Assembly (NCBI RefSeq): GCF_018449635.1 | Contig: NZ_JAAVUV010000001.1 | Location: 558,001-622,000 of the forward strand | Reading direction: 5' to 3' | DNA: 64,000 nucleotides | Source: Caballeronia sp. dw_276 | Lineage (GTDB): Bacteria; Pseudomonadota; Gammaproteobacteria; Burkholderiales; Burkholderiaceae | Shown here: one piece after another, positions 2,491 through 12,011 of the stretch | Layout: each line of letters begins with the position of its first letter | Numbering within the stretch: the first letter of the stretch is position 1 | Notes under the pieces: model-generated | Told to the model about the DNA's origin: nothing | What the model saw: the letters and a program-made list of their open reading frames with translations, nothing else | Databases searched by the model: none | Translations under genes and position numbers: made by a program

Positions 2491-3765
2491 TCAAACCGTG
2501 ATTTCGTCGCGTGCTTTGGCTTCTTGATACGCGCTGACTTTATTCACAACATGCTCGGCGTCGCGCGCAACGCCGGAAAAGCGTCCTGAGCCCCAGGTAT
2601 GCAACCATGGCAGGCCGACAAAATAGATGCCATCGACGGGCGTCACGCCGCGCGTGTGCGCAGGGTAGCCACGGCCGTTGAAGATAGGTGCGTCGAGCCA
2701 GCTGAAGTCGGGCGTAAAGCCGATACACCACACAATCGAACCTATGCCGCTCGCCTCCAGATCCAGCGAAGTGCGTTCCCCGGCGGGCGCCCACACAGGT
2801 TCGTAGCGCGATCCCGGCGGCGCATCAATGCCGTTCTTCTCGATGAACGCATCGATGCCCGCGTTGATGCCGTTGAACGTCTTGTCGGCGCTATCCAGAT
2901 TTTCGATGAGGTTCGGCGCGAAATGCAGCATGCCATCGCGCAGGTCCTGAAGCCGTCCATACAACTCCATGCCTTCGGCGGCGAACTTGCGCAGATCGAT
3001 ATCGCGTCCGCCATCGCGCCCGGTCACATAGTGATTGGTGTTGTCGCGCACGCCTTCACGCAACGGATGCTGCTCGACGGGCATGTCGTAATACTTCATG
3101 TCGGCAAGCCAGTCGACCACGTCGCGGCCTCGGTAGAAACGCGCGCAACGCGGCGCTTCGCCCACCGCGAGAATGACCTTTCGTCCTGCAAGATGCAGGT
3201 CCTCGGCGATTTGCGCGCCCGATTGCCCCGACCCGACCACGAGCACCGCGCCTTCGGGCAACGCTTCCGGATTCCGATATTCCGACGACTGTATTTGGGC
3301 GATGGAACGCGGCAGGCGCTCGGCCATGCGCGGCACGATCGGCGTGTGATAGCCGCCCGATGCAATCACGATCTGGTCCGCTGTGAACGCTCCCTGAGTG
3401 GTCGAGACGCTGAACCCGCTTTCGACGTTCCGCACGACGCGCTGGACCTCCGCATGTTCGATTACAGGCGCATCGACGGTCTTGATGAAGCCGTCCAGGT
3501 ACGCAATGATTTCGTCCTTTCTCATGAATCCGTGAGGATCGTCACCCGCGTATGGATAGCCCGGCAGCGCGCATTGCCAGTTCGGCGTCACGAGGCAGAA
3601 CGCATCCCATCGCTGGGATCGCCATGTATGCGTGACTGTGTTCTTCTCCAGCACGAGATGATCGATACCTGCTTGCTTGAGGTAGTAGCTCGCGGACAAA
3701 CCTGCCTGTCCTCCGCCCACTACGATCACGCTGTAATGCGTCGTGTCCGCTGAAACGTGCGACAT
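2491..3765 (-). CDS. nitH: MSMEG_0569-family flavin-dependent oxidoreductase (NitH-like)
   Basis: The protein is a two-dinucleotide-binding flavoprotein of 424 residues related to class B flavin monooxygenases. An N-terminal FAD-binding GGGQAG motif lies at about residues 17-22 and a second GSGQSG motif for NAD(P)H near residue 176. The LEKNTVTHTWRSQRWDAF segment is typical of the group in which the family is usually annotated as MSMEG_0569-type. It is the last gene of the operon and lies 29 bases after the glycosyltransferase fusion gene. The equivalent gene in the Pseudomonas fluorescens Nit1C cluster is described as part of a set needed for cyanide utilisation; the substrate of the oxygenase itself is not known. 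The operon shares a terminator with katA. Confidence 0.85.
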   Translation of the reverse strand: MSHVSADTTHYSVIVVGGGQAGLSASYYLKQAGIDHLVLEKNTVTHTWRSQRWDAFCLVTPNWQCALPGYPYAGDDPHGFMRKDEIIAYLDGFIKTVDAPVIEHAEVQRVVRNVESGFSVSTTQGAFTADQIVIASGGYHTPIVPRMAERLPRSIAQIQSSEYRNPEALPEGAVLVVGSGQSGAQIAEDLHLAGRKVILAVGEAPRCARFYRGRDVVDWLADMKYYDMPVEQHPLREGVRDNTNHYVTGRDGGRDIDLRKFAAEGMELYGRLQDLRDGMLHFAPNLIENLDSADKTFNGINAGIDAFIEKNGIDAPPGSRYEPVWAPAGERTSLDLEASGIGSIVWCIGFTPDFSWLDAPIFNGRGYPAHTRGVTPVDGIYFVGLPWLHTWGSGRFSGVARDAEHVVNKVSAYQEAKARDEITV

Positions 3766-3794
3766 GATGCGTCCTCACTGAAAGATGGCAACGC

Positions 3795-5228
3795 TCAGAC
3801 GAGCGCGATGACCCTGACCCGGGCGTCGGGCTCGTCCATGAAACGTTCGGCATCGACTTCGATTTTCGCGAGCTGATCCATCGCGGCCGAGCACGCAAAG
3901 CCGTATTTCTCGCGCACGCGTTCGGATGCGATGTTCAATGCTTCGCGGGCGCGCGAAACGAAGTCGTCGACGGGATAGGTCTCGCCCGGCGTGAAAAAAT
4001 CGCTGACGACTTGCGATGGTGAATAGCAATTGTCTTCGCGGTTATCGGGCCACTGGATTCGGAAGTGCATGACCGGCATGGCGGGTTCCTGGAATGTTTT
4101 GAGCGTGCGGCTTGAGAGTAAGCTGCTGTAAATGTCGAGGTGTCTTTTCGCCGATGCCCGCCAGCTCATTTGTGCGAGCAACGCGGGCACGGCGTTGTTG
4201 AAATCGGTTATGTGACGGCCGCTGATGACTTGTTCTAGCGCATCGGCAATCGATTCGCTGTCGGTTGGCGTCGCCCAGCAACATGTAGCGTCATCGAGAT
4301 ACTCGGTGAACGGCGCAATGTTCGACGCCACCACCGGCGTACCGCTCGCAAGCGCTTCGAGTACGACAAGTCCGAAGCCTTCACGCAGCGATACCATGGC
4401 GAGGACATCGGCACGGCGAAAAAGTGCGGGCATGCTGGCGTCATCGATTGGTCCGGTGACGGTTACTGCATCCGTCAGGTTCAGGGCGGCAACGCGTTGC
4501 ATGAAGGCATGCGCGTACGCGTTGTGATCGAGCAGGCTTGCACCTCCCGCAATCACGAGGCGTGCCTGTGGGTGGCGTTGGAACAATTGGGCGAATGCTT
4601 CAAGCAAAGCGACGGTGTTCTTGCGCGCTTCAATGCCGCCGACCGCCAGCACAACCGGTGATCCGTCAATGCATAGAGCTCCATCTTGAAGCGTTCGATG
4701 TGTCGAATAGCGCATCAGGTCGACACCGTTAGTCACCGTGATCGCATTTACTCCGTGTGTCTCGCGCATCGCGCGACTCCACATATCGCTAACGCATAGC
4801 ACTCGATCCGCGTCACGCCACGCACGCATTTGCCAGGCGGCGAGACGGGGGTTGTCGAAGTGATCCAGATGGTGAACCGTGCGAACGAAGCGGGTTATTT
4901 CGCCTTCTTCCTTCAGTTCCGCCAGCGCGTTTCCGCTAATGCCGTCCTGTGCATGGAGCACGTCGAAACTGCCTGGATCGCAGGCTTTCAAACTTGCCTT
5001 CAAGGCGCGAATGCGTGCCTCCACCATCGCCACCGTGTGCTGTTGCGTGCCTTCGATGGTCGCAAGGATCACGCGGCACGGAGGCTCGCGAAAGAGCGAT
5101 TCGCCGGGAGCAGCGGGCGCGAAGATCGTGACGTCGTGACCTTCGTCCACCAATGCAGCGGCAAGTTCGAGCGCATGCACCACGCCGCCGCGCGGATTGA
5201 CCGAGTGCGTGGTGAGGGCGATGCGCAT
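3795..5228 (-). CDS. GT4-type glycosyltransferase (MSMEG_0565 family) fused to an MSMEG_0570-type domain
   Basis: The start is the ATG at 5228, which overlaps the stop of the preceding gene as TGATG; an upstream in-frame methionine at 5276 lies inside that gene. Residues 1 to about 375 form a GT-B glycosyltransferase (MRIALTTHSVNPRGGVVHAL at the N-terminus and the EGFGLVVLEALASGTPVV nucleotide-sugar signature). From residue 384 the sequence becomes a complete small protein of the MSMEG_0570 type, usually encoded separately (about 94 residues, starting MPVMHFRIQWPDN). There is no stop codon between the two, so the product is 477 residues. The internal ATG at 4079 has an AGGA seven bases upstream, so the small domain could also be made alone. 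Acceptor and sugar donor are unknown. Confidence 0.8.
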   Translation of the reverse strand: MRIALTTHSVNPRGGVVHALELAAALVDEGHDVTIFAPAAPGESLFREPPCRVILATIEGTQQHTVAMVEARIRALKASLKACDPGSFDVLHAQDGISGNALAELKEEGEITRFVRTVHHLDHFDNPRLAAWQMRAWRDADRVLCVSDMWSRAMRETHGVNAITVTNGVDLMRYSTHRTLQDGALCIDGSPVVLAVGGIEARKNTVALLEAFAQLFQRHPQARLVIAGGASLLDHNAYAHAFMQRVAALNLTDAVTVTGPIDDASMPALFRRADVLAMVSLREGFGLVVLEALASGTPVVASNIAPFTEYLDDATCCWATPTDSESIADALEQVISGRHITDFNNAVPALLAQMSWRASAKRHLDIYSSLLSSRTLKTFQEPAMPVMHFRIQWPDNREDNCYSPSQVVSDFFTPGETYPVDDFVSRAREALNIASERVREKYGFACSAAMDQLAKIEVDAERFMDEPDARVRVIALV

Positions 5229-6196
5229 CAGGTTACGCTCCCTGATGTTATGAACGCGTCGATTCCGAAGTTCCAAAGTTCACCGTGGTTGTCGCCATCT
5301 TGAAGGCTGACCTTGCGCGAACCATCGACGGTGCCAATTACATCGCAAGCAAGACCGCGTTCAAGGAACAGTTGCCTGACCTGTTCCACGTTCTCTTCAC
5401 GCACGGACATCACGAAGCCGAAGCTGGGAAACGCAGTGAGCCATCGCAAACGGTCAACGTCAGGCGGCGATGGCAAACGTGAAAGGTCGATATTTGCGCC
5501 CGCCCGCGAGCATTCGAGCAGCATCAACGCAGTACCCAGGGCGCCAGCCATGCTGATGTCTTTGGCTGCAGTGCAAAGACCGGTTTCGGCGAGCATCGGC
5601 AGGAGCTCGAGATCAGCGCGCAAGCGTTCAGCGGGCGCACCCACCGAAGCATTCCAGAACGGATAAGGATTTTCGAAGCGCCCACGCAGATCGACGGCCA
5701 TCATCAAACGATCGCCCGGCCTTGCATCGAAGCTGGACAACAATTTTTTCGCGCGTCCAATAATCGATACCGCCAGTTGTGCCTGATCGCTGCGCGTGTT
5801 GCTGTGGCCGCCGACAATCGGTACGTCATACGCCGACGATGCTGCTGCCATGCCCGCCAACACCTCTTCAGCGCGCTGTAAGCCGTCGCTCCAGAGTGCA
5901 TCGACTACGGCGACGGGGCGGCCGCCCATCGCATAGATGTCGCTGACGTTGACCATCACGCTGCTGTAGCCCGCAAACCACGGCATGTCGCGTACGAAGT
6001 CGCTGACCATGCCTTCGATGGCGAACAACAGGTAACCGTCGCCATCAGGGATGGCTGCGCAGTCATCGCCGTTGGCGACGTTTTCAGCCGAGGCGGGCGC
6101 ATGTCGCGCGAGCGAAGACATCACGCCTGCAATGTCCGTCTTATGGCGGAAGCCGCGCGTTTCCTTCAACGCGGCGATGAGGTCGGCCACGTTCAT
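5228..6196 (-). CDS. nitF: AIR synthase-related protein, Sll0787 family (NitF-like)
   Basis: This is a 322-residue member of the PurM/ThiL/SelD ATP-binding superfamily. The N-terminal half holds the acidic GDDCAAI stretch near residue 43 and VNVSDIYAMGGRPVAVV near 83, equivalent to the metal-ATP binding elements of ThiL and HypE; GGHSN near 130 is the second conserved loop. The family is found almost only in Nit1C-type clusters and its reaction is unknown; the fold suggests ATP-dependent phosphorylation or activation. The start codon overlaps the stop of the acetyltransferase gene by 4 bases (ATGA), and its own stop overlaps the next start by one base, which indicates translational coupling. 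Confidence 0.83.
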   Translation of the reverse strand: MNVADLIAALKETRGFRHKTDIAGVMSSLARHAPASAENVANGDDCAAIPDGDGYLLFAIEGMVSDFVRDMPWFAGYSSVMVNVSDIYAMGGRPVAVVDALWSDGLQRAEEVLAGMAAASSAYDVPIVGGHSNTRSDQAQLAVSIIGRAKKLLSSFDARPGDRLMMAVDLRGRFENPYPFWNASVGAPAERLRADLELLPMLAETGLCTAAKDISMAGALGTALMLLECSRAGANIDLSRLPSPPDVDRLRWLTAFPSFGFVMSVREENVEQVRQLFLERGLACDVIGTVDGSRKVSLQDGDNHGELWNFGIDAFITSGSVT

Positions 6197-6753
6197 GCCG
6201 CGCTCCGCGCCGACGAATATTGCGTCACGAAGCCGCTATGCGGCGTGGCGCATGGCGGATAAAAATCAAGGTCGGCCCGCATCAGATGATGCGGCCTTCC
6301 ATGCATGAGTTCCTCCGACAACGTGGTCCAGTGCAGCGCATGAAACAAGGGGGCATTCTGGCTTTGCACATGTGCGAGAAATTCCTTGCAGCCAAGCGCG
6401 TGTGCACTGCTTACAGCAAGTCTGATCAGCGTTGCGCCAATTTTCCCGTGACGCCGGAACGCCGCATGAACTGCGAGCCTTGAACCCGTCCACACGCCCG
6501 GTTCGTCCTCGTGAATGCGCACGGTGCCGACCACCTGCTCGTGCATTCCACCAATGCAACTCACCGCCACCAGCAGTTGCGCGCGGTCATCGATTTCATC
6601 GCGGTCATCGCCGACGAAGATTCCCTGTTCGATGCAGAACACCGCGCGCCGCAGCTTGTACGCTTCGTCCGCTTCCCACGGCAGCGTGGTCCACTTGATC
6701 GTGTAGCTTGCAGGCGTATAGAGGCGGGCGAGGTCTTCGGTATCGGCGAGCAT
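6193..6753 (-). CDS. nitE: GNAT-family N-acyltransferase, MSMEG_0567/Sll0786 type (NitE-like)
   Basis: The 186-residue protein has the GNAT fold: LRRAVFCIEQGIF near residue 34 matches the alpha1-beta2 region of this subfamily, and SRLAVHAAFRRHGKIGATLI near 90-109 is the acyl-CoA pyrophosphate-binding motif A (R-x-x-G-x-G-like, here RRHGKIG). Proteins of this type are named nitrogen starvation acetyltransferases because of their conserved cluster context in cyanobacteria and actinobacteria. The gene starts three bases after the radical SAM stop codon and overlaps the next gene by four bases. The acceptor is unknown. Confidence 0.82.
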   Translation of the reverse strand: MLADTEDLARLYTPASYTIKWTTLPWEADEAYKLRRAVFCIEQGIFVGDDRDEIDDRAQLLVAVSCIGGMHEQVVGTVRIHEDEPGVWTGSRLAVHAAFRRHGKIGATLIRLAVSSAHALGCKEFLAHVQSQNAPLFHALHWTTLSEELMHGRPHHLMRADLDFYPPCATPHSGFVTQYSSARSAA

Positions 6754-6756
6754 GGT

Positions 6757-7881
6757 TCAGACCTCGTAGGAAGACAGTGACGAACACGCGCCGCATTTGC
6801 CGCATCCCGCCTTGATATCGCCGGAACGCATCCCACCTGCGGAGACCATTGCACCGAGCGGTTGCAGCACGGACTTCATGAATTCGGGCGAGGGCGCCGG
6901 ATGATCTTCAAGCGGCGTGCCGCTGATCGGCACGAACGGGACCACGAACGGATAGACGCCGATGTCCACGAGTTCACGCGAGATCGAAAGAATCGCTTCA
7001 GCCGTATCTCCCAGTCCCGCGAGAATGTAGGTGCTGACCTGTCCGCGTCCGAACACGGCGACGGCCGCCTTGAACGACTCCATGTATCGCGAGATCGGCA
7101 CGCTCGCCTTGCCGGGCATGATCTGTTCGCGCAGCGCGGGCGTCACCACTTCGAGATGCATCCCCAACGTATCGATACCGCTTGCACGCATGCGCTCGAA
7201 CCACTTGTCGTCGTCGGGTGGTTCGCATTGCGCTTGTATGGGCAGGTCGACGGCTGCCTTGATTGCGAATGCACTCTCGCACAAGATCTGCGCGCCGCGG
7301 TCTTTTGTCGGCGGCGTACCTGTGGTGAGGACCATGTGCTTGACGCCATCGAGCAGGACCGCCGCGCGCGCGACTTCCGCTAGTTGCTCGGGCGTCTTGC
7401 GCGCGATCGTCCGGCCTGCCGCAAGCGACTGACCGATCGCGCAGAACTTGCAGGTCTTCTTGCGGCTCTCGTATCGAATGCAGGTTTGCAGCACTGTCGT
7501 CGCGAGCACGTCGGACCCGTGTAACGTCGCAATGTGCGAGTACGGTACGCCGTCGAAGGTTTGCATCGCGTAAAAGCGTGGCGCCTTCGGGAAGCTGATA
7601 TTTGCTATCGGGATCGAGCCACGCAGCAACGCGCTGCTGCCGCTCGCATCGGGAGCGGACGCCACGAACGGCGAATTCCACGCCGTGTTCGTGTGCACCG
7701 GAACCATGATGGTCACGCCGTCGATGGTCACCGCTTTATGATCCGACGGTCCTGCGCCGCCACGGCGGCTCGCCACGCTCACGCCCGCGCCGGGATCCGC
7801 GAGACGCAAGCCCGTCGATTGCAGTTCAGTCATCAATTGCCGGCTCGTGGCCGACATTGTCTCGCTCGCGTTCGCGTTCAA
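6757..7881 (-). CDS. nitD: Radical SAM protein, MSMEG_0568 family (NitD-like)
   Basis: The protein of 374 residues has a biotin-synthase-like radical SAM layout but with widely spaced cluster cysteines: C134, C144 and C147 give CX9CX2C in place of CX3CX2C. A second cysteine group near the C-terminus (C360, C363, C366) could hold an auxiliary iron-sulfur cluster. The [12 protein letters not shown]-like segment near residue 40 is characteristic of the family. The start is ambiguous: a TTG at 7881 has GGGGA eight bases upstream, while an ATG at 7857 begins [12 protein letters not shown] and fits family N-termini better. Either way the gene overlaps the nitrilase end by 32-56 bases. The reaction is not established. 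Confidence 0.84.
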
Positions 7882-8851
7882 GATGCTTTTCCCCGGTTGA
7901 AGGTGAGAAGGGGTTCATGGGCGCCGACGTGACTGCGGGGCGGTCGTTGATCGCAAGGCTCAACAGTTCCGGCCGTGCGTAGTGGCCAACTGAATCCATC
8001 ATGCGTTTGCGTTTGGTGATCAAGGACATGTCGAGGTCCGCGATCACCAGACCTTCTCCTTCGCGCAACGGCGGCGCGAGGTGCTGGCCTTCCGGCGAGA
8101 TGATCGCGGTGTTGCAGCCGCCACGAAGCGCCTTCTGCAAGCCGGGCTCCTTCGTGATGGATTCGATCTGTGATTCGGTCAGCCATCCCGTGGAATTGAC
8201 CACGAAACAGCCGGATTCCAGCGCGTGATGCCGGATCGTCACCTCGATCTGTTCGCCGAAGATGGGACCCACGAGCGAGCCGGGAAACTGGCTGCAATGG
8301 ATCTCTTCGTGTTGCGTCATCAGCGCGTATCGGGCGAGCGGGTTGTAATGCTCCCAGCAAGCCAGCGCGCCCACTTTTCCGATGCTCGTTTGCGCCACTT
8401 TCAACCCCGACGCATCGCCCATGCCCCAGATCATTCGCTCATGAAACGTCGGCGTGATCTTGCGGCGCTTGAGAAGCAGCTCACCGGTGGTATCGAAGAT
8501 GAGTTGTGCGTTGTACAAACTGCCGTGATCACGTTCGTTCACGCCGAGGACGACGACCATGCCGTGACGGCGCGCCCGTTCCGAAACCGCATCCGTCACC
8601 GGGCCGGGCACGACGACGGCTTCATCGTAGAGGCGCATGTGTTCTGCACCCGATGCAACCGGCGCCCGTACAAACGAAAAGTACGGGTAGTAGGGCAGGA
8701 AGGTCTCGGGAAACACGATTAGCTGCACGCCTTGGCGCGCGGCGTCGTCGATTGTCGCGAGGACCTTGTCGAGCGTTCCACCGGGCCGTTCGAGGTCCGG
8801 CGAAATCTGGACCGCGGCGGCACGGACGATTCTCTTGTCGGGCATGGTCAT
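7826..8851 (-). CDS. nitC: Nitrilase, Nit1 / Sll0784 family (NitC-like)
   Basis: A carbon-nitrogen hydrolase of 341 residues with the complete catalytic set: glutamate 49 in [14 protein letters not shown], lysine 131 in [12 protein letters not shown], and cysteine 165 in [15 protein letters not shown]. The CWEHYNPL context is that of true nitrilases, which hydrolyse R-CN to acid and ammonia. In Pseudomonas fluorescens the homologous gene belongs to the Nit1C cluster linked to growth on cyanide. Here it is the second gene, 25 bases after the NitB-like gene. The last 20 residues are charged and overlap the radical SAM start, so they are probably not part of the conserved fold. Confidence 0.92.
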
Positions 8852-8876
8852 TCCGTGGTCGATGGAGTCGGCGTGC

Positions 8877-9359
8877 TCAGACGGTCCACGTGTTGATGAT
8901 CAACGCGCCGTCTTTCCGATGCAGCAACTGGATATCAAGCACGTCGAGCGGGCTGATCGGCTTGATGCCCTCGATCAGCGACGCTTCGCCCTGTCCATAA
9001 AGCGCCTGCAATGCAAAGCGGCATGCGTAGACCTTGCCGCCTTCTTCCATGAACTTCTGGATCTGCTTGTTGAAGTTCAGGTGACCAGGGAATGCTTCGT
9101 CGCCGAGCGTGGGGAAACCGCGTTGCAGTCCGAGCGTCACGCCGGGACCGTAGAGCAGCACCGACGTCTCGAAGCCTTTGCGCAACAGCCGCGTGGCCTG
9201 CAGCAGGTTCACGAAGCCGATCGAGCCTTCGAACGCGACCGTATGAAACGTCACCAGCGCCTTCTCGCCCGGGGCGGCCTTGACGTCCTCAAAGACCTTC
9301 TCTTCATAGTCGACAAGATAATCGCCTTTCTTGTGCATCGGGATATTGACGGCAGGCAT
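8877..9359 (-). CDS. nitB: MSMEG_0572/Sll0783-family nitrogen starvation response protein (NitB-like)
   Basis: This is the first gene of the operon, encoding a 160-residue cytoplasmic protein with a DsrE-like fold pattern ([20 protein letters not shown] near the N-terminus, and [13 protein letters not shown] with the single conserved cysteine). Its role is unknown, but it accompanies the nitrilase in nearly all known clusters of this type. The start at 9359 is chosen because GGAG lies seven to eight bases upstream; a methionine four codons earlier would overlap that ribosome-binding site. A consensus sigma-54 promoter lies about 100 bases upstream. Confidence 0.83.
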
Positions 9360-9454
9360 TCTAATCTCCATTAAATAGACGATTTAATACATCGATAATC
9401 CTGGGCATCCGGTTTTTTAATGGGATGCCGACATGCTGCTTGCAAACTCAATAA

Positions 9455-9470
9455 TGCAACCGTCGTGCCA
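9455..9470 (-). promoter_or_regulatory. Sigma-54 (-24/-12) promoter of the Nit1C-type operon
   Basis: Read on the minus strand, the sequence is TGGCACG, four bases, TTGCA, which matches the RpoN consensus exactly with correct GG-to-GC spacing. It lies about 97 bases before the start codon of the NitB-like gene. This predicts nitrogen-type, activator-dependent control of the whole seven-gene operon. Confidence 0.82.
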
Positions 9471-9500
9471 TTGAATCGCTGCGTCAATGCGATCAACACC

Positions 9501-9720
9501 CGATCATTCAAACGATCAGCACTTGAGACGCTCGTAAATTTTTTTCGAACAGACCGTCAAAGCCTTGTCCAGTCTGAATTTGGCGTTGAGCCGGCATCGG
9601 GGACGCACCAACTGTGCGTGGTTTTGTTGGTGCAACGGCTCGTTGCTGGTGCAATAAACACTCAATACGTGCATTAATAGACGGCTGAAGCAATCTCCAT
9701 ACGATCATTCGATGCGATCA
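9501..9720. promoter_or_regulatory. Two copies of a CGATCATTC-N3/4-CGATCA element in the divergent region
   Basis: One copy is at 9501-9518 and the other at 9702-9720, each made of CGATCATTC, a 3- or 4-base spacer and CGATCA. One is near the sigma-54 promoter and one directly before the MocR-type gene. MocR regulators bind repeated half sites, so these are plausible operators for both directions. Confidence 0.45.
9605..9633. promoter_or_regulatory. Possible upstream activator site (inverted repeat)
   Basis: Perfect 8-base inverted repeats GCACCAAC and GTTGGTGC are separated by 13 bases; a third near-copy, GCTGGTGC, follows at 9645-9652. The site lies roughly 150-170 bases upstream of the sigma-54 promoter, the usual distance for an enhancer-binding protein, and its half sites resemble the NtrC half site GCACC. 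The activator is not identified. Confidence 0.5.
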
Positions 9721-9782
9721 ATTTGTTTTATTCGAAGATATCGTGCTATCGTTTTTTAACGCGTTTTAATCAGAGATCGTTC

Positions 9783-11174
9783 ATGACCAGTCTTACTCAT
9801 CACTGGATCAGAAAACTTACGGAAAGCCGCAAGCCGGCATATTTGCTGATTCCGGAGTTAATCGAAGAAGATCTGGCGAGCGGACGCTTGCGTCCGCGAG
9901 ACCGGCTGCCCGGTTTGCGCGATCTCGCCGATGAACTCCAGCTCAACTACACGACCGTTGCGCGCGCCTATGCCGAAGCGCGCAAACGAGGTCTGCTCGA
10001 CTCGCGCGCGGGCAGCGGAACGTTCGTGCGCGGCCGGACCGCGACGTTGCCGTTATCGGGCGGCAGCAGTGTCGAGATGACCATGAACATGCCGCCCGAA
10101 CCTGCCGAGCTGGCCGCACGATTGCGCGACTCAGCGGCGCGGCTGTTCGCGGCAACCGATCCTTATCGCTTGTTGCGGTATCAGGATTTTGGCGGGACGC
10201 CCGACGATCGCGCAGCCGGAACAAAGTGGCTCAAGCGCCGTTTCCACGATTGCGACGAAGACAAGGTGCTCGTATGTCCGGGCATTCATAGCGCGCTCGT
10301 GGCGCTGGTGTCGCAGCTCGCGCGGCCGGGTGGCACCATCTGCCTCGATACGTTGGCGTATCCCGGCATCAAGGCGATCGCTGCACAACTCGGCGTGCGG
10401 TTGCAGGCGCTCGCACGCGACGACGATGGTCCGCTCGCGCATGCGTTCGAAGCGCTCTGCAAAAGCGACAAACCGAGCGCGTTCTATTGCAACCCGACCA
10501 TTCAGAATCCGAGCACGGTCACGCTTTCGTCGAAGCGCCGCGAGGCGCTGGCGGACGTTGCATTGAGATACAGCGTGCCGATCATCGAAGACGATGCATA
10601 CGGCATGCTGCCCGTGAACGCGCCCGACGCGATGGTTTCGTTCGCGCCGGATCTGACCTACTACGTGACGGGTTTTTCGAAGAGCTTCGGCGCAGGGCTT
10701 CGGGTTGCATACATTCGCGCGCCTTCCGCACGGCGGGCACAACACCTTGCCGGTGCATTGCGCGCTACAACGGTAATGGCAAGTCCATTCACCATGTTGC
10801 TCGCGACCCAATGGGTCGAGGACGGCACCGCCGCTCTGATGCTCGATGCCATTCGGACCGAGTCCGCTGCACGGCAGGCAATTGCAGCGCGTGTGTTATC
10901 GAAGTGGACGTTCGATGCCGATCCCGCCGGCTTTCATTTCTGGATGCCGATCGATCCCGTATGCGGATGGCAAGCGTCCGAGCTTGCCTTGCAGTTGCGT
11001 TCGCAGGGTATAGGAGCGGTATCGGCGACGGCGTTCGCGACCGATGGCAATCCGCCCGAAGCCATCCGCGTTTGTCTTGGCGGACCGAAAAATCTGGAAG
11101 AATGCGAAGACGCGCTGAGGTTGATCGCGGATACGGTCGAACATCCACATCACCTGCATTTGCCCGTCATGTGA
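9783..11174 (+). CDS. MocR-type transcriptional regulator (GntR HTH plus aminotransferase domain)
   Basis: This 463-residue protein has a winged helix-turn-helix of the GntR type in residues 1-80 (RDRLPGLRDLADELQLNYTTVARAYAEARKRGLL) joined to a fold-type I aminotransferase domain. The PLP lysine is in the GFSKSFGAGLRVAY motif and the NPTIQNPS and EDDAYG motifs that contact the cofactor are present. Such proteins sense PLP or an amino compound and usually regulate a neighbouring divergent operon. Here the divergent operon is the nitrilase cluster. The start at 9783 follows AGAG; an in-frame TTG at 9723 lies within a likely operator. Known Nit1C clusters have a sigma-54 activator gene next to them, so this regulator is a notable replacement or addition. 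Confidence 0.88.
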   Translation: MTSLTHHWIRKLTESRKPAYLLIPELIEEDLASGRLRPRDRLPGLRDLADELQLNYTTVARAYAEARKRGLLDSRAGSGTFVRGRTATLPLSGGSSVEMTMNMPPEPAELAARLRDSAARLFAATDPYRLLRYQDFGGTPDDRAAGTKWLKRRFHDCDEDKVLVCPGIHSALVALVSQLARPGGTICLDTLAYPGIKAIAAQLGVRLQALARDDDGPLAHAFEALCKSDKPSAFYCNPTIQNPSTVTLSSKRREALADVALRYSVPIIEDDAYGMLPVNAPDAMVSFAPDLTYYVTGFSKSFGAGLRVAYIRAPSARRAQHLAGALRATTVMASPFTMLLATQWVEDGTAALMLDAIRTESAARQAIAARVLSKWTFDADPAGFHFWMPIDPVCGWQASELALQLRSQGIGAVSATAFATDGNPPEAIRVCLGGPKNLEECEDALRLIADTVEHPHHLHLPVM

Positions 11175-11249
11175 TGTTGCGCGAAGCGTGTCAAGCAGAC
11201 GTAACGCCCGCTTGTTACGATGCAGCCTTTCGTCCCGACAGTTCGCCCC

Positions 11250-12011
11250 ATGTGGAACCTCTCGTTCTTTCGCTTGACGATGGCCGCGCTTGCGGCTGTG
11301 TTCCTGACAACGGCGTGCGCCGGCAATCCCAATGCGTTATGGCAGATCGTTCACAACTCGTGCGAACCGGCCGCGCGTGGAGCGGACGTGCCGCAAAAAT
11401 GTATCGATGTCGATGCCGCTCAAGGCTATGCGGTGCTCAAGGATCTCAACGGTATCGCCCAGTATTTGCTGATCCCGACAAAACGCATTGGCGGGATCGA
11501 AAGTCCTGAGCTGCTAGCGGCGGATTCACCGAACTACTGGCGTGCCGCGTGGGAAGCCCGGCGTTTCGTGAACGCGAAACTCGGCGAGGAATTGCCTCGT
11601 GACGAAGTTTCGCTCGCGATCAATTCGACCAGGGGGCGTTCGCAGAATCAGTTGCATATCCATATCGATTGCCTCGCGCCCGATGTCGTGAACGCATTGC
11701 GCGAACAAGCGCCGAAGATCGGCACGCAATGGACTGCGTTCCCGACGCGGCTGCGCGGACATGTGTACAGGATCATGCGTATCGATGACCCAACGCTCGA
11801 TTCCGTCGATCCGTTCAAGTTGCTCGCGGTGGATGTAGAAAAGGAGGGCGAAAGCATGGCGGACCAGACGCTGCTGCTGACCGGCACGACCACGCCCGAT
11901 GGCAGGCCCGCGTTTTTCCTGCTCAACGATCATGTGCGTTTCACGCAAGGCGACTTTGCATCGTCCGAAGAGTTGCAGGACCACAGTTGCGCGATTGCAC
12001 GCAAACGCTAG
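11250..12011 (+). CDS. cdh: CDP-diacylglycerol pyrophosphatase
   Basis: It hydrolyses CDP-diacylglycerol to CMP and phosphatidate at the membrane. The motif NQLHIHIDC (HxHxD, a HIT-like arrangement) is the catalytic signature of the family, and the length of 253 residues is typical. The N-terminus MWNLSFFRLTMAALAAVFLTTAC has a hydrophobic core and a terminal cysteine, which suggests a signal anchor or a loose lipobox. An in-frame ATG ten codons earlier (11220) is possible; neither start has a clear ribosome-binding site. It stands alone between the MocR regulator and the racemase. Confidence 0.86.
   Translation: MWNLSFFRLTMAALAAVFLTTACAGNPNALWQIVHNSCEPAARGADVPQKCIDVDAAQGYAVLKDLNGIAQYLLIPTKRIGGIESPELLAADSPNYWRAAWEARRFVNAKLGEELPRDEVSLAINSTRGRSQNQLHIHIDCLAPDVVNALREQAPKIGTQWTAFPTRLRGHVYRIMRIDDPTLDSVDPFKLLAVDVEKEGESMADQTLLLTGTTTPDGRPAFFLLNDHVRFTQGDFASSEELQDHSCAIARKR

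Follow-up and report, generated by a model that had tools for sequence, protein, structure and literature searches.

A Nit1C nitrilase operon of Caballeronia with a conserved putative sigma-54 promoter and candidate operator repeats for a divergent MocR-type regulator

The Nit1C operon and its divergent MocR gene

We analyzed a stretch of 64,000 nucleotides of Caballeronia sp. dw_276 (contig NZ_JAAVUV010000001.1, positions 558,001 to 622,000; here called the window), taken from a genome of 6.79 Mb in 83 contigs. A complete Nit1C operon occupies its minus strand from 9371 to 2491 and is divergent from a gene for a MocR-type regulator (9783-11174, plus strand). Between the two genes lie an exact sigma-54 -24/-12 sequence, a tandem TGATYG repeat at a fixed distance upstream of it and a cluster of GCACC/GGTGC half sites, an arrangement which suggests that a regulator carrying pyridoxal phosphate (PLP) may act on a sigma-54 promoter. 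The tandem repeat is the best conserved upstream element and was absent from an earlier account of the same stretch (here the original prediction).

The operon comprises seven open reading frames (ORFs) that hold the eight canonical Nit1C parts, because the MSMEG_0565 glycosyltransferase and the MSMEG_0570 protein share one ORF (3795-5228). All eight parts scored above the curated NCBIfam cut-offs and lie on the same strand, with a largest intergenic gap of 29 bases, in the order MSMEG_0572, Nit6803 nitrilase, MSMEG_0568 radical SAM protein, GNAT, sll0787 AIR-synthase (AIRS)-like protein, MSMEG_0565-MSMEG_0570 fusion and MSMEG_0569 flavoprotein. The first gene (8877-9371, in the NitB position) encodes an MSMEG_0572/Sll0783 family protein (TIGR04044, 283.8 bits against a cut-off of 109.85) and is followed, in the NitC position, by the gene for the Nit6803-family nitrilase (7826-8851; TIGR04048, 574.1 bits), which matches CN_hydrolase and has a LACWEH motif from residue 163. 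The radical SAM gene (6757-7881, with a TTG start) matched both TIGR04043 (596.5 bits) and the NCBIfam model variant_rSAM (NF045502, 167.2 bits), and a Cx9Cx2C cluster motif is present in its translation. Next come the genes for the MSMEG_0567/Sll0786 GNAT acetyltransferase (6193-6753; TIGR04045, 238.4 bits), the sll0787-family AIRS-like protein (5228-6196; TIGR04049, 480.7 bits), the fusion protein (TIGR04047, 509.6 bits, and TIGR04042, 134.5 bits, in a single frame) and the MSMEG_0569-family flavoprotein (2491-3765; TIGR04046, 695.2 bits). Every ORF thus matched its Nit1C family, in line with the identity first proposed for the operon. The seven genes were likewise all found, but the overlaps of 1 to 56 bases that had been described occur at three junctions only (by 56 bases, assuming the TTG start for the radical SAM gene, and by 4 and 1 bases), the other three being gaps of 25, 3 and 29 bases. 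Several same-genus genomes encode additional Nit6803-like nitrilases of 53-59% identity, and one of them (G015) has four matches in total.

The likely start of the fusion ORF is the ATG at 5228, and an internal ATG of its MSMEG_0570 part lies at 4079. Nine same-genus relatives have one in-frame TAG inside the corresponding match, and in L155, the sole relative compared letter by letter, this TAG aligns with a CAG codon of the window. The glycosyltransferase/MSMEG_0570 region gave two separate matches in G018 and is one open frame in G013. The single frame in the window may be a real fusion or a sequencing error.

The product of the divergent gene combines a GntR helix-turn-helix domain (PF00392) with an aminotransferase fold (PF00155), both above cut-off, and gave no match to the AAA+ sigma-54 interaction domain PF00158, so that the original view of the adjacent regulator as a MocR protein and not a sigma-54 activator stands. 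Residues N237, D270, Y273, K300 and R307, which we take to be the PLP-holding residues of fold-type I enzymes (K300 being the PLP lysine), were invariant in seven MocR orthologues. A search of solved structures with the protein returned aminotransferases only at E values of 1e-10 or better (13 sequences), and its score against the EhuR/EnuR ectoine regulator model NF052286 (377.7 bits) was under the cut-off of 480. One relative (L036, genome G249) has an intact promoter region next to a MocR match that falls into two reading frames (residues 1-170 in one, 169-362 in the other), either because the regulator is broken or because of a sequencing error.

Conservation of promoter and repeats and their linkage to MocR

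Upstream regions were collected from same-family genomes (of 299, 65 had the first Nit1C gene), from relatives and from 80 named records found by MocR alignment (the best 80 among the matches listed). After 19 regions identical around the promoter box were taken out of the 155 put in, 136 distinct regions were left, none of which had been dropped for lacking a box; they were chosen for a MocR gene near the first gene, with the exception of L076/G154. Removal of similar sequences gave a thinned set of 91 regions. In counts that anchored on a loose pattern or took the best box per region, box frequencies arise partly by construction; dinucleotide shuffles of the 136 regions served as the control.

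The window carries the sequence TGGCACG-N4-TTGCA on its minus strand at 9455-9470 (TGGCACGACGGTTGCA), exactly as had been reported for an RpoN-type promoter. At up to one mismatch to this consensus the window gave three matches against 0.74 expected, and the box at 9470-9455 was the only perfect one. Within 180 bp of the first gene, 136/136 distinct regions had a GG-N10-GC box that agrees with the consensus in 9 or more of its 12 letters, compared with 4.0% of shuffles, and TGGCAY-N6-TGC occurred in 130 of the 136 regions compared with 0.35 per shuffled set. Conservation of the -24/-12 element in relatives had been named beforehand as the test of this promoter; these counts did not refute it and support a conserved sigma-54 promoter upstream of the operon. 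On the opposite strand 54/136 regions also reached 9/12, which is above shuffles. These matches stem from a box-like stretch on that strand (TGGCCCG-N4-ATGCA), conserved in many relatives, which coincides with the proximal repeat.

This repeat, a candidate MocR-type operator at 9487-9518 on the minus strand (extended form TTGATCGCAT), contains three TGATCG copies (9490-9495, 9501-9506 and 9513-9518), the first bases of which lie 25, 36 and 48 bp upstream of the -24 box. TGATYG was present at exactly 25 bp in 123/136 regions (80/91 in the thinned set) and at exactly 36 bp in 121/136 (78/91). The pair TGATYG-N5-TGATYG occurred in 71 of 77 regions compared with a mean of 0.08 over 50 shuffles, and was absent from all 21 glnK upstream regions examined as a control. 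When the 91 thinned regions were aligned on the box, information peaked over TTGATYG from -37 and over TTGATYGCAT from -26, with background conservation between. Exceptions to the spacing (24/35/46 or 36/47) were mostly a shift of one base or of one 11-bp unit; L084 had no TGATYG upstream, and L093 had none at the usual positions. In the whole genome of 6.79 Mb the operator pattern was found once at up to one mismatch, at this locus, and at 12 further places at two mismatches. A distal TGATCG pair near the mocR start (9702-9720, minus strand, with copies at 9702-9707 and 9715-9720) may be an autoregulatory site. The proximal repeat and the half-site cluster have a partly conserved A/T tract (9539-9547) between them; in the thinned set, A/T columns within -73 to -68 hold 0.62-0.73 bit.

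Linkage to MocR was conserved as well. In 64 of the 65 nit-bearing same-family loci MocR was directly divergent; in the 65th (G154) an orthologue of 63% identity lies 4.4 kb away across an insertion, and the tandem repeats are kept despite this separation. Among the 80 named MocR relatives, 78 are divergent to the first Nit1C gene, and of the other two, L206 ends at a contig border and L230 adjoins other Nit1C genes. Fifteen further loci above cut-off were read from class- and phylum-wide draws, and 13 of these had MocR. A box of at least 9/12 was present in 12 of the 13 MocR-bearing loci (the match in L132 overlaps a repeat and is doubtful), and all 13 had two to six TTGWWYG half sites within 400 bp. 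In more distantly related loci the half sites often read TTGAATG or TTGTATG, and MocR diverges there as well. Both loci without MocR (G421 and G874) had a box at 9/12 and zero TTGWWYG half sites in 400 bp. In G874, MocR is replaced by a PAS sigma-54 activator of the NitA type (AAA+ domain PF00158, GAFTGA motif), and the gene beside the G421 operon encodes a PAS-GGDEF-EAL protein.

The first Nit1C gene was also found in 515 plasmid records (374 of them from Klebsiella), and eight plasmid loci were read. Those of Klebsiella, Pantoea, Methylorubrum and Paraburkholderia have MocR and the box, and in the one Klebsiella locus read the repeat is at the usual 25 bp. The Acinetobacter soli locus lacks MocR; it has a box, preceded by no repeats, and a match to a NitA-type activator in several frames. 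The Rhodococcus locus has neither MocR, nor box, nor repeats. Of the four loci without MocR, therefore, three keep the box without repeats upstream, and two of these three (G874 and A. soli) have a NitA-type activator.

MocR, then, goes with the repeats. An alternative in which they are bound by another regulator, MocR being merely a conserved neighbor, could appeal to G154, where the repeats are retained with MocR 4.4 kb off; that genome, however, still encodes the MocR orthologue. Loci that lack MocR also lack repeats upstream of the box, distant loci with a different MocR have altered forms of them, and direct repeats are a usual form of a MocR operator, so that we regard this alternative as improbable.

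A possible combination of MocR, sigma-54 and an unlinked activator

Farther upstream, a cluster of GCACC/GGTGC half sites (9605-9673) forms a candidate enhancer, which includes the inverted repeat GCACCAAC/GTTGGTGC at 9605-9633, 135-163 bp from the -24 end of the box. The 136 regions contain 294 such half sites compared with 62.5 in shuffles, and at least one was present in 134/136. Preferred distances from the box were 171-173 or 181-183 bp for GCACC and 128-130 or 139-140 bp for GGTGC, two registers that differ by about one helical turn between lineages; smaller peaks were also seen at 184 (15) and 160-161 bp (22) for GGTGC and at 163-164 bp (14) for GCACC. Among 77 regions the half-site pairs were spaced as GCAC-N21-GTGC in 26, with N9 in 15 and N7 in 9. 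Of 21 same-family glnK regions, 16 had a nearby sigma-54 box and 15 had GCAC-N7-GTGC. With an NtrC-like model of 15 bp built from 13 glnK sites (two non-N7 matches, both from L116, were excluded), 74 of the 136 nit regions scored at least 6 bits, compared with 8.3% of shuffles. The original idea that the GCACC inverted repeat is an enhancer is partly supported, by enrichment, phasing and NtrC-like scores above shuffles; the weak score in the window itself and the six MocR-bearing loci that have no half site, both given below, speak against it.

We propose, with a probability of about 0.6, that a PLP-sensing MocR acts from the tandem repeats on the sigma-54 promoter, while NtrC or another unlinked activator supplies the ATPase. 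The Nit1C operon would gain nitrogen from cyanide or cyanide-derived nitriles, and its sigma-54 promoter would take two inputs. The divergent MocR would be the operon's own ligand sensor; it would bind the direct repeats TTGATYGCAT, 11 bp apart and just upstream of the -24 element, as well as the second pair near its own start, and would contact or shape the promoter complex. A protein without an AAA+ domain cannot open a sigma-54 complex, and as MocR has none, an unlinked activator would have to provide the ATPase; NtrC, acting from the half-site cluster that lies 130-200 bp upstream of the -24 box, is the likeliest candidate. A plausible ligand would be a cyanide- or nitrile-modified form of PLP, in line with what has been suggested for MpaR, a MocR protein of Pseudomonas aeruginosa. 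Gene content, conservation, spacing and the joint occurrence of MocR and the repeats are observed, whereas we infer the binding of MocR, the sign of regulation, the ligand and the part played by NtrC. A more specific version, in which MocR senses cyanide or nitriles directly (the PLP aldehyde being caught in a cyanohydrin or a nitrile adduct) and, phased upstream of the -24 element, licenses the sigma-54 promoter, is tentative and on balance rather unlikely. If true, it would amount to a MocR-gated sigma-54 promoter, and lineages would differ in whether this logic or a NitA-type AAA+ activator controls one and the same operon.

Several observations weigh against the proposal. The relatives are not independent, and the shuffle controls therefore overstate significance. 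Among the 13 MocR-bearing loci of the class- and phylum-wide draws, L137 had no box, TTGWWYG sites at a spacing of 9-13 bp were found in only eight, GCACC/GGTGC was absent from six (L134-L139), and a single half site is all that L122, L124, L129 and L141 contain. The Agrobacterium and Acetobacter plasmid loci have a MocR-like gene (39% and 33%, respectively) and no box by the criterion used here. Sigma-54 is therefore not needed by MocR everywhere; box and MocR each can occur without the other, and the possibility that they are always together was ruled out by these two loci and L137. Only 1 of the 136 nit regions reaches the score of the weakest glnK site, and the best NtrC-like site in the window scored 8.0 bits compared with 14.2-21.2 for glnK sites. 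Two precedents add to these points: in Pseudomonas CECT5344, MocR is reported to act as a repressor of the cio/nit4 cluster (PMC8567248), which points to the opposite sign, and protein levels were reduced as well in the MpaR point mutants (PMC10790758), so that the MpaR precedent is not clean.

The loci in which the box is missing (Agrobacterium, Acetobacter and L137) would also suit a chance match to the -24/-12 sequence, with transcription of the operon from a sigma-70 promoter. Set against this are the conservation of the box in all 136 regions, its fixed register with the repeats and the report that NitA of the Pseudomonas cluster is a sigma-54-dependent regulator (PMC11049912, PMC5333837), and we consider a sigma-70 promoter highly improbable.

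The enhancer may serve a sigma-54 activator other than NtrC, the GCACC cluster being either the site of that activator or a further site for MocR, an explanation that fits the many spacings of the half-site pairs, their scores under those of glnK sites and the presence in the genome of many AAA+ activators, none of which is a full-length match to the NitA type. Near-consensus GCAC-N7-GTGC sites are, however, enriched in nit regions, same-family glnK shows the same half site together with a sigma-54 box, and the Nit1C family models carry nitrogen-starvation names. Such an activator appears possible, with a chance clearly short of even, and NtrC control in this family is plausible. NtrC as a settled answer was rejected, as the 15-bp glnK model gives intermediate scores only. 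A dedicated NitA orthologue elsewhere in the genome was rejected too; the matches found were to the AAA+ and C-terminal parts, the best with 56% identity over residues 317-553 of 648.

With respect to the sign of regulation, MocR may instead be a repressor or anti-activator which, beside the -24 box, blocks the sigma-54 polymerase or the enhancer loop and is released by cyanide- or nitrile-modified PLP. The operator does sit between the half-site cluster and the promoter, and the CECT5344 regulator provides an example of repression. The operator stops short of the -24 box with rigid spacing, however, and simple occlusion requires neither; moreover, MpaR is described as a positive regulator with its motif 61-62 bp upstream of start sites (PMC10790758). 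Repression is a serious contender that we place a little below an even chance. In our proposal, the fixed spacing and helical phase suggest contact of MocR with the promoter complex and hence slightly favor a ligand-dependent co-activator over an anti-activator or repressor.

Neighboring genes and comparison with known systems

A catalase gene (965-2431) is convergent with the end of the operon in the window; as a part of the system it was rejected, being absent from the seven other fetched Nit1C loci examined. A methylmalonyl-CoA mutase-like gene lies beside Nit1C in two arrangements, in L150 (genome G154; 7876-11511) next to a gene for a 295-amino-acid protein and in L257 (16063-18489) next to a Pnap_2097 family gene. 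L150 also has a second Nit1C-type GNAT. The mutase-like gene and its neighbors are a possible accessory module.

Modulation of an NtrC-driven sigma-54 promoter by a ligand-binding protein without an AAA+ domain is known from enteric bacteria, where ArgR acts at the NtrC/sigma-54-dependent astC promoter. ArgR and the MocR of the window differ in that they belong to unrelated protein families and have unrelated operators.

Two systems resemble the window in their regulator. MpaR is needed for cyanide-inducible expression of ccoN4 in P. aeruginosa, the K314A substitution abolishes reporter expression, and a PLP-cyanohydrin was proposed as the signal by the authors (PMC10790758). As in the window, a MocR-type regulator with a key lysine is linked to cyanide-responsive genes, and the MpaR motif lies about 60 bp upstream of the start; unlike in the window, the promoter is a predicted -10/-35 type, the motif is a short palindrome and not direct repeats, and the genes are respiratory and not Nit1C (PMC10790758). 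The second system is the cio/nit4 cluster of CECT5344, in which MocR likewise lies beside a cyanide-linked cluster with a nitrilase; a mocR mutant is reported to show constitutive cio/nit4 expression (unpublished data of the authors) and grew better on 3-cyanoalanine (PMC8567248). That nitrilase, unlike the one in the window, is Nit4, the cluster is another one, and its MocR is the reported repressor referred to above (PMC8567248).

When Nit1C was described in 2005, conserved upstream binding sites could not be identified, and no gene conservation outside the cluster was seen between species (PMC1199592). Both points now change for most proteobacterial loci read, which have a conserved promoter, a fixed-spacing candidate operator and a conserved regulator. 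In the literature searched, with most subscription papers outside its reach, we found no description of a MocR-controlled Nit1C operon or of a MocR-bound sigma-54 promoter, and the main text of a study of MocR regulons (PMC5320631) contains no occurrence of nitril, cyanide or radical SAM. These elements would offer a direct way to find the signal that induces this operon of largely unknown chemistry, and a test of the proposal that PLP-cyanide adducts signal cyanide within the cell. The use of MocR in some lineages and of a NitA-type activator in others, at the same operon, would also offer a natural experiment in how a sigma-54 promoter passes from one master regulator to another.

The closest known systems are the Nit1C operons of Pseudomonas oleovorans/pseudoalcaligenes CECT5344 and P. 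fluorescens NCIMB 11764. Nit1C is reported to be required for growth on cyanide as nitrogen source in Pseudomonas (PMC11049912), and NitA to be the sigma-54-dependent regulator of Nit1C there (PMC11049912, PMC5333837). The operon and its control by NitA in Pseudomonas are already known; what is new is the regulatory wiring of the operon analyzed here. The two Pseudomonas operons share the structural gene set with the window, and their regulator is sigma-54 linked (PMC11049912); the difference is that the divergent regulator in CECT5344 and NCIMB 11764 is NitA, a sigma-54-dependent protein of the Fis family, whereas that of the window is a MocR protein, accompanied by MocR-type repeats and by a glycosyltransferase in the operon.

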